This document shows, in pieces, positions 4,210 to 55,872 of a stretch of 64,000 bases of DNA. The notes under the pieces were generated by a model. It ran no database searches. It saw only the letters and a program-made list of their open reading frames with translations, and was not told the origin of the DNA. The DNA is from Sphingobium sp. CR2-8 (lineage in GTDB: Bacteria; Pseudomonadota; Alphaproteobacteria; Sphingomonadales; Sphingomonadaceae). The first letter of the stretch is position 1; the number at the start of each line of letters is the position of its first letter. Both the position numbers and the translations under genes were made by a program. Where the stretch lies: NCBI RefSeq assembly GCF_035818615.1, contig NZ_JAYKZY010000002.1, forward strand, positions 2,234,501 to 2,298,500. The letters run 5' to 3'.

Positions 4210-4275
4210 GTTCCCCGGCGCAGGCCGGGGTCCAGATCAGCGTTTGCAACTGGGCCCCGGCCTGCGCCGGGGAAC
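4210..4275. repeat. REP-type palindrome, family A copy
   Basis: Two arms of about 25 bp (core CCCCGGC-gcag-GCCGGGG and its mirror) face each other across about 16 bp, between two convergent genes. The same element recurs at 20526-20591 and, in shorter form, at 55888-55917 and inside the composite repeats. Confidence 0.85.
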
Positions 4276-14326: not shown

Positions 14327-14407
14327 GATTGGGCTGCGGTTCACTGCGCATATGCCCACTGTCGGGTTTGCGGGTGCGCGCACCGTACAGTAGACTTGGC
14401 ATTCACC

Positions 14408-14438
14408 GTCACCCCAGCGAAGGCTGGGGTCTCAGGCG
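14408..14438. repeat. 31-bp inverted repeat, left boundary of the GIY-YIG unit
   Basis: The sequence contains its own palindrome (CCCCAGC-gaag-GCTGGGG). It is matched at 30 of 31 positions by the reverse complement of 14745-14775, on the other side of the GIY-YIG gene. Confidence 0.9.
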
Positions 14439-14459
14439 GTGACGCGCTATGGTAGGATT

Positions 14460-14744
14460 ATGGTGAGAGGCGGCCACACCTACATCATGACCAATAAGCC
14501 GAGGGGCATGCTTTATATCGGCGTGACAGCCAATATCGTTGCGCGTGCGTAACAACATCGAAACGGCTCCGGCTTTTGCAAGAAATACGGTCTGACCCGA
14601 TTGGTTCTGGTCGAGCCGCATGATGACATCATGCTCGCCATCGCCCGCGAAAAGGCGCTCAAAGCCTGGAAGCGGGAATGGAAAATCCGGCTTGTGGAAG
14701 AGAGCAATCCAGATTGGCGCGACCTGTCAGACGTCATCTTCTGA
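14460..14744 (+). pseudogene. GIY-YIG endonuclease (COG2827/URI-domain type) with premature ochre stop
   Basis: Reading through one stop gives a 94-residue single-domain GIY-YIG nuclease. The N-terminal strand pair is YIMTN and LYIGVTANI, then the catalytic-arginine region (IVARA), QHRNGSGF, KKYGLTRLV and the metal-binding glutamate helix AREKALKAWKREWK. It ends in NPDWRDL, a typical tail of this family. Codon 31 (14550-14552) is TAA, where relatives have Tyr or Trp before QHR, so a single-base change could have created it. The gene lies between two inverted 31-bp copies of a palindromic repeat, and its stop codon touches the right copy. This suggests a mobile or repeat-linked unit. Confidence 0.85.
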
Positions 14745-14775
14745 CGCCTGAGACACCAGCCTTCGCTGGGGTGAC
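14745..14775. repeat. 31-bp inverted repeat, right boundary of the GIY-YIG unit
   Basis: Reverse complement of the left boundary copy with one mismatch. It starts at the base after the GIY-YIG stop codon. Confidence 0.9.
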
Positions 14776-14849
14776 GATCAAGGGAATGGCCACCATTAAG
14801 TAATGGCACAGCCTGTTCTAACGGCGACTTCTGGTCGCAATCACGAACG

Positions 14850-14960
14850 CCCTTTCGTCATGCCGGGCTTGACCCGGCATCCCGCTGCTTTCCAAGGCCG
14901 AAGAAAAGCGAGACCCCGGGACCAAGCCTGCCTTGAACCTGTCGAGGGGTCCGGGGTGAC
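14850..14960. repeat. palindromic repeat, family B (GTCACCCC type)
   Basis: ATGCCGGG-cttga-CCCGGCAT followed about 70 bp later by an inverted GGGGTCCGGGGTGAC end. The same plan is seen at 41383-41479 and 54871-54961. The rest of 14776-15023 shows no coding potential. Confidence 0.7.
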
Positions 14961-20525: not shown

Positions 20526-20621
20526 GTTCCCCGGCGAAGGCCGGGGTCCAGTTGAGAGCGTGGAACTGGACCCCGGCCTTCGCCGGGGAACGTTCAATGT
20601 TTCTATCAATGCACGTGGCTA
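20526..20621. repeat. family A palindrome plus fragment of the composite repeat end
   Basis: The arms at 20526-20591 form a perfect-looking dyad (core CCCCGGC-gaag-GCCGGGG). It is followed at 20599-20613 by GTTTCTATCAATGCA, which matches one end of the MITE-like repeat on the minus strand. It lies between convergent genes. Confidence 0.8.
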
Positions 20622-55740: not shown

Positions 55741-55872
55741 TACCGAGTTGCATTGATAGAAACCTATAGAACTGTTCCCCGGCGAAGGCCGGGTCCAGTC
55801 CCGCGCTCAGAACTGGACCCCGGCCTTCGCCGGGGAACTGCCTTATAGGTCAGCATCATCGCATTCTGATAT
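55740..55872 (+). repeat. MITE-like composite repeat, copy 4 (longest)
   Basis: Left end ATACCGAGTTGCATTGATAG with AAACCTATAG, a central double family A hairpin, and right end GGTCAGCATCATCGCATTCT then GATAT. It starts at the last base of the HAD gene stop codon. Confidence 0.92.

Follow-up and report, generated by a model that had tools for sequence, protein, structure and literature searches.

Does the small GIY-YIG nuclease gene that lies between two inverted palindromes in Sphingobium sp. CR2-8 belong to a mobile unit, and could the nuclease be the enzyme that spreads the palindromes? In the window, the whole stretch of 64,000 nucleotides that was analysed, the gene sits in the 368-bp arrangement described in the initial annotation: a 31-bp palindrome, 21 bp, a GIY-YIG frame and the inverted palindrome were all found at 14408-14775. 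The left terminal palindrome (14408..14438, plus strand), a REP of type A, carries a GTCA tag that reads CGTCA together with base 14407. It is built from a stem ACCCCAGC/GCTGGGGT, a GAAG loop and the tail CTCAGGCG, and its 31 bp read GTCACCCCAGC-GAAG-GCTGGGGTCTCAGGCG. This copy is itself the 31-bp type-A reference and hence has 0 mismatches to it. A 21-bp spacer (14439..14459, plus strand) leads to the ATG at 14460 of the nuclease frame (14460..14744, plus strand), which ends with a TGA at 14742-14744. As claimed, the right terminal palindrome (14745..14775, minus strand) starts directly after this stop codon and is an inverted copy with 30/31 identity, showing one stem mismatch. In a repeat search the two arms extended to 37 nt at 92%. 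Directly to the right of the unit, at about 14856-14960, another palindrome with a CTTGA loop (GTCATGCCGGGCTTGACCCGGCATCCCGC) is present, which has an inverted partial partner ending in GGGGTGAC.

GIY-YIG is the sole Pfam match of the 285-bp frame (PF01541, E 3.8e-10 with the TAA read as X), which is Slx1-like and of the COG2827 type. The frame is broken. An ochre stop had been noted at codon 31, and a TAA indeed stands there when the window frame is read; compared with the stop-free paralogues L004, L005 and L006, 6 bp are missing. The window copy (L007) cannot make the full protein. Residues Y5, Y16, R26, H30 and E63, presumably the catalytic residues of the GIY-YIG family, are invariant in 10 aligned family members. 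Among solved structures, the chains matched were 1zg2 and 1ywl, both UPF0213, and a match to an NCBIfam intron endonuclease stayed below the cut-off. An asparagine, N82, is invariant in A1 and might or might not be the equivalent of the C-terminal Asn that is reported as missing in Slx1-like proteins in the consulted part of PMC1564403.

The host genome (4.5 Mb, three contigs) contains 10 PF01541 matches, nine of them above the family cut-off; among the best 120 of the 928 protein matches listed, most of the named close ones are Sphingobium. Four of the PF01541 matches, L004, L005, L006 and the window copy, share the pair of palindromes. Outside the Pfam matches lies a fifth unit, L016 (C2:1231716-1232074), which shows both palindromes and clear DNA similarity. 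With four further units of this genome arranged in the same way, the arrangement in the window is no product of chance. Three of the five units are intact, the frames of L004, L005 and L006 being stop-free. With 27 type-A matches in this genome, the REP whose inverted copies bound the unit gene is a repeated one, as in a REPtron. Outside the palindromes, a left flank (14363..14407) and a right flank (14776..14837), both unstranded, are common to other units as judged from the similarity between units, and window positions 14363-14837 match the unit copy at C2:2642783-2643263. Since the similarity of this genome's units runs past the palindromes, 368 bp is maybe not the exact unit, and the true ends are uncertain because the outer flanks are shared. 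These flanks, which by eye are absent from most gene-less pairs, might either belong to the mobile unit or represent a repeat that it prefers as a target.

The CCCCGGC-GAAG-GCCGGGG palindromes scattered through the window had been noted as close to the terminal repeats in sequence. They turned out to form a different family, GTT-CCCCGGC-GAAG-GCCGGGG-TCCAG, distinguished by its GTT tag and TCCAG tail (4213-4272, 20529-20588, 27901, 46566, 55777-55835 and 55894; three of the sites are head-to-head pairs). This second family borders GIY-YIG genes as well, with repeats to the left and right of L105 and a similar picture at L009, and genes of the L009/L105 type are its likely partners. A RAYT was considered for this genome and rejected: no REP-flanked RAYT was found, and Y1 transposases (PF01797) are represented by a single match, a decayed frame at G000:C2:3348664-3349026. 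This frame, which we take to be an IS200-like TnpA, contains one TAA and is not bordered by a GC-rich hairpin pair. For an anti-phage defence reading, PADLOC returned no match.

Within the genus, units were found at differing places. The sequences flanking the window site occur widely among 94 Sphingobium-genus genomes and, among the matches listed, unit-only matches lie elsewhere. From part of the genomes matched, 20 unit places in 13 genus genomes were taken. Together with the five own units, both palindromes were observed in 24 of 25 cases, the left end of the remaining one (L242) being cut off by a contig end. On a crude read of the 25 units, in-frame stops occur in L007, L251 and L255; L016, L241, L244 and L251 match the protein over part of its length only. 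At the window site, 29 loci of relatives were fetched (L197-L225), 14 of which held both flanks. The strain comparison suggested in the initial annotation came out in its favour: the GIY-YIG unit was found at the orthologous site in none of these 14 comparable relatives, the best tblastn hit at the 14 sites being at chance level (E 0.24; window control 3.4e-59). The spacers there measure 53 to 1244 bp. L206 and L214 hold, by eye, a type-A palindrome pair and L197 and L223 a type-C pair, so the window site takes up REPs repeatedly. The junctions at the compared sites were too variable for reading target-site duplications or exact insertion points. A separate observation concerns L226 (G000:C2:1653600-1655300), where two type-A pairs (355-430 and 1231-1306) lie in frame inside one long ORF, which we take to be glyS. 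The second of these sites was compared in 28 loci, own genome included (30 fetched). By eye, it is occupied by seven type-A pairs, five GTGCTCC-like ones and one each of type B, the CTTGA type and type D; the rest are seven short linkers of 12-21 bp and six others.

To score the flanks of GIY-YIG genes in sphingomonads, PF01541 was searched in 100 genomes, own included. The locus set comprised 29 loci from this search (among the matches listed), 60 regions selected by place and the 10 own loci; L008 and L010, having no match to the seed profile, were dropped, which left 97. With flank windows placed relative to the domain, inverted repeats with a score of at least 14 were detected at 75 of the 97 sphingomonad-order loci, compared to 14.2% of 970 mispaired flanks. 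The corresponding values in direct orientation were 29/97 and 4.0% of mispaired flanks; the tests also score in this orientation because the repeats are palindromic. Windows placed relative to the stop codon (34/97 vs 3.1% of 776) were replaced by the domain-based ones, as they missed many repeats because the frames run on past the domain. By pattern, the same repeat class is present on both sides at 54 of 97 loci. YIGVT-type proteins go with repeat classes A, B, C, E and F, GHTD-type proteins with class D variants (CCGTTCG..CTGAGC..); in the 97-locus list, read by eye, these two putative subfamilies have disjoint repeat classes and no crossing locus was seen. In one case, L095 (G082:C5:158353-160552), two GIY-YIG matches of equal score lie 578 bp apart as a tandem pair.

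No inverted-repeat flanks at score 14 were found in 22 of the 97 loci, among them L029, L032-L035 and L037, presumably YhbQ-like genes, as well as L085, L086, L101 and L102. The initial annotation had named GIY-YIG genes in relatives without such flanks, and repeats equally abundant in genomes without any GIY-YIG gene, as evidence against its own reading. The first kind does exist, in the UvrC loci L008 and L010 and in L029, L032-L035 and L037. As regards the second, there is a genome (G023) with 11 type-A repeats and one PF01541 match. The guess of a RAYT-like role for a COG2827-type nuclease is nevertheless supported by the flank scoring, by the absence of the unit at the window site in relatives and by units elsewhere.

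Does this association extend beyond sphingomonads? An alignment of 10 proteins searched against genome contigs matched at least 590 stretches, at least 580 of which encode a relative. The best 80 of these relatives, ranked by protein match, were kept; they span Alpha-, Beta-, Gamma- and Deltaproteobacteria, Ignavibacteria, Omnitrophota, Nitrospirae, Planctomycetes and candidate phyla. Inverted repeats scoring at least 14 were observed in 55 of the 80 loci compared to 10 of 800 in-locus control windows (direct orientation: 34/80 vs 16/800), and none at this score in 25 of the 80. A strict CGTC hairpin pointing outward on both sides was present in 39 of 80 loci vs 1 of 1600 control windows (Fisher p ~2e-55). 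On left flanks the hairpin points outward in 46/80 and inward in 18/80, on right flanks in 48/80 and 17/80, respectively. Among the sphingomonad proteins assigned to this subfamily, 20 of 31 have the CGTC hairpin on both sides. Loops were typed as GNAN or CTTGA-like by a crude rule that leaves a few labels doubtful; left and right types agree in 24 of 24 doubly typed loci. On a protein tree with few columns and weak support, loop type changes 5 times among 55 labelled loci, compared to a shuffled mean of 17.1, and 0 of 500 shuffles were as low. These sequence comparisons show that the palindrome type goes with the nuclease lineage.

One could suppose that the intergenic regions harbouring small GIY-YIG genes are by coincidence frequent insertion places of REPs, and the uptake of several REP families in relatives, both by the window's intergenic region and by the linker inside the long ORF of L226, is in line with this. 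Such a hot spot leaves unexplained, however, the inverted outward orientation with near-identical left and right copies, as well as the agreement of loop types and their match to the nuclease lineage. It is already disfavoured by in-locus controls near zero, and we consider it highly improbable.

Many copies of the palindromes occur without a gene. In this genome the type-A palindromes are mostly in head-to-head pairs, and 14 loci were examined for gene-less ones: 13 such pairs, enclosing 12-187 bp, were found, and L233 and L234 show a single palindrome only at the cut-off used. At two different sites, L229 and L235, the 5′ and 3′ ends of the unit are kept and the coding core is missing. The two are 89% identical, and their junctions are nearly the same: CACCTAC, followed one to three bases on by GATATGAC. 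A third, partial copy (L233 at C1:427855) matches query positions 31-136 at 92% and has, by eye, its junction within a base or two of theirs. Nearly the same deletion at three sites is explained most simply by movement of a gene-less form; independent deletions at L229, L233 and L235 are a possible alternative. The gene-less forms are REPIN-like pairs and MITE-like internal deletions with the same ends as the units.

The number of repeats per genome was compared to the number of PF01541 matches, a count that mixes all GIY-YIG kinds. Among 61 genus genomes, own included, and with relatedness ignored, type-D repeats correlate with the count (rho 0.56, p 2.7e-6) and type-A repeats do so more weakly (rho 0.34, p 0.008); among 39 order-level genomes, relatedness again ignored, no correlation was seen for type D (rho 0.18, p 0.26). 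The four genus genomes with a single PF01541 match have 0, 0, 0 and 4 type-D repeats (the latter being G060), compared to a median of 24 in the rest (Mann-Whitney p 0.003, relatedness ignored). The type-A repeats of G023, whose single match (E 1.5e-8) is of unchecked identity, are possibly orphan repeats. In G043, fifty type-A-like repeats (up to 2 mismatches) accompany three PF01541 matches, and about half of 40 of the 50 have a TCGCAGG tail.

Pairs without a gene, and repeats in a genome with one match such as G023, might indicate that another transposase or replication slippage moves the CGTC palindromes and that the nuclease gene is caught cargo. It would also fit that we know of no strand-transfer chemistry for GIY-YIG enzymes. 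Against this speaks that loci selected by protein alone carry the paired motif so much more often (39/80) than control windows of the same loci (1/1600), and that palindrome type tracks nuclease lineage. Moreover, the available text of PMC3733652 describes only few fortuitous transposase associations beside CGTC repeats. We therefore regard cargo status as unlikely.

Most of the copies examined have kept an intact frame, and these frames are under purifying selection, as judged from their sequences: over 150 pairs with dS 0.05-2, drawn from the 19 of 24 units that are full-length and stop-free, the median dN/dS is 0.10 and the maximum 1.32. Selection of this kind would also be expected of a housekeeping Slx1-like enzyme of DNA repair, one that would resolve the hairpins or cruciforms of REPs and be retained next to REPs because these regulate or terminate its transcript. 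The palindromes of the type-A units do sit a short way before the start codon and at the stop codon, and a repair role was predicted for prokaryotic Slx1-like proteins in the consulted part of PMC1564403. Differing sites, absence at comparable orthologous sites and several copies with decayed members are, on the other hand, the pattern of a mobile element, and the gene-less forms have the same ends. A purely cellular function is for these reasons improbable in our view. Instead, we think it rather probable from the sequence comparisons that a REPtron-like mobile element, with a single-domain, Slx1-like GIY-YIG gene between head-to-head CGTC palindromes, exists in several copies, of which the 368-bp unit is a decayed one.

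Plasmids offered a further view of such units. Matches were found in 33 of 72,556 plasmid records, some of them chromosome-sized, and plasmid carriage is probably not the main route of spread. Of nine plasmid-collection loci scored by script, seven reach 14, with L259 and L265 below; the match of L262 at this score is not a CGTC palindrome. In seven Sphingobium plasmids a GIY-YIG gene is located between fnrL and a regulator; script scoring of two of these loci (L256, L257) gave identical 31-bp palindromes to the left and right of the gene. At the same fnrL-regulator spot, TomTYG64 carries a single palindrome that has the CGTC tag at either end and matches the outer half of each flanking palindrome; TomTYG74 has an imperfect version of it, and TomTYG72 and TomTYG65 have other sequence. 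A two-headed palindrome in two plasmids where relatives hold the unit is suggestive of a homing-type empty target, and the state of TomTYG64 and TomTYG74 would fit either loss or insertion at the hairpin tips. Two-headed palindromes are uncommon, occurring for type A in 12 of 100 genomes at one site each and, by our own count, at 4 of 43 sites in ten plasmid records. A model in which such single palindromes are the usual target of units is therefore disfavoured, and the TomTYG64/TomTYG74 state looks more like a collapse or excision scar. In Rhizobium, the 8 plasmid records that span most of the query include none with the unit's site empty, and the Rhizobium plasmid gene L259 is without repeat flanks; in Novosphingobium pNL2 an empty site was sought with no clear result. 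Other repeats surround some of the plasmid-collection genes. A GIY-YIG-like stretch of Neisseria gonorrhoeae (L262, 1501-1764) lies among dRS3-like GTCATTCCCGC repeats in non-canonical orientation, and GIY-YIG genes of Planktothrix and Spirosoma (L264, L265) lie among GTCATTCTGAG.. or GTCATCC..GAGGA repeats. The surroundings of L264 and L265 suggest further repeat classes.

How might such a unit move? We propose that Slx1-like GIY-YIG nucleases are the missing mobilising partner of CGTC REPs, and we infer a catalytic role of the nuclease in mobility. The nuclease would recognise the hairpin or cruciform of its own REP lineage and then nick or cut it. The lineage matching of nuclease and loop argues for such recognition, and REP hairpins or cruciforms are plausible substrates because Slx1-type enzymes act on branched DNA, as stated in the consulted part of PMC1564403. 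After that, the REP-bounded DNA would be copied or joined by the replication or repair machinery of the host. This host step would be needed because DNA hydrolysis, the reaction of GIY-YIG enzymes, cannot by itself join strands and, to our knowledge, passes through no covalent DNA intermediate. The enzyme could move its own unit in cis and gene-less pairs in trans, in a homing-like transposition, and the genome's intact copies could provide the enzyme for the ends of the window copy. For a wider reading we see even chances: that small GIY-YIG nucleases mobilise a second great class of REPs, each lineage cutting and spreading its own CGTC or CCGTTCG-type palindromes, and thereby give rise to autonomous units ('GIY-REPtrons') and to non-autonomous REPINs and MITEs across several phyla by transposase-free break-and-copy.

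With a lineage-matched nuclease between head-to-head CGTC repeats, the question of the mobiliser can be put directly to the test on a protein of about 96 residues. If the proposal is true, an unrelated enzyme family joins the drivers of bacterial palindrome dispersal, and GIY-YIG cutting together with host repair can serve as the equivalent of a transposase. It would also help to explain why small GIY-YIG genes, whose annotation reads nuclease or excinuclease-like, occur several times per sphingomonad genome. In the open-access full-text literature, no report of a link between GIY-YIG and REPs was found among the matches listed.

The repeats themselves have a known counterpart. CGTC REPs were defined by Di Nocera 2013 (PMC3733652) and, according to the consulted part of that paper, are mainly alphaproteobacterial, where they occur in all orders, and are also found in other phyla. 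They are described there as having a CGTC tag, an 8-9 bp stem, a 4-5 nt loop and often a CCA tail, and as forming head-to-head dimers; an alternative form combines a 9-bp stem with a 5-nt loop. Like family 1 of that paper, as far as its available text goes, type A has CGTC, an 8-bp stem and a 4-nt GAAG loop. It has A-T at stem position 1 as expected, C-G in place of A-T at position 2, and a CTC tail instead of CCA, whereas many other loci show, by eye, both AT and CCA. Transposase genes were sought beside CGTC repeats in that work, which states that the repeats lack an association with such genes, and its consulted sections name no dedicated transposase; the repeats described here, in contrast, are tied to GIY-YIG genes.

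As a protein, the unit nuclease resembles the prokaryotic Slx1-like family (UPF0213; E. coli YhbQ, B. subtilis YazA) in being a minimal single-domain GIY-YIG nuclease. In the consulted part of PMC1564403 (2006), minimal prokaryotic GIY-YIG proteins are grouped with Slx1 and UPF0213 is placed in this family; the review PMC7017083 lists E. coli YhbQ in the same family in its available text. Unlike the unit nuclease, the family appears in those sections of PMC1564403 as a predicted repair family, with REP flanks unmentioned there. The same sections name Penelope-like retroelements as mobile elements with a GIY-YIG nuclease; these carry a reverse transcriptase, whereas the window frame matches GIY-YIG only. 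With regard to a classical DDE insertion sequence, too, GIY-YIG was the sole match of the unit's frame.

Two systems come closer in their proposed mode of action. Free-standing and intron GIY-YIG homing endonucleases such as I-TevI and Seg are selfish and spread by cutting and repair copying, as is proposed for the unit. Unlike these, the unit is bounded by its own hairpin repeats and occurs at several sites per genome, and no intron or intein was recognised. The RAYT/TnpA_REP system (REPtron), as described in the consulted part of PMC8266576, pairs an HUH tyrosine transposase with REPs carrying GTAG. The unit is like this system in having one small nuclease gene with REPs alongside, cognate families in the genome and dispersed gene-less pairs. 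It differs in its enzyme, which is GIY-YIG (PF01541) and not HUH/Y1, and in its tag, which is CGTC and not GTAG. Because neither the HUH domain nor the GTAG tag was found when looked for, the unit would work like a REPtron but is not a RAYT.
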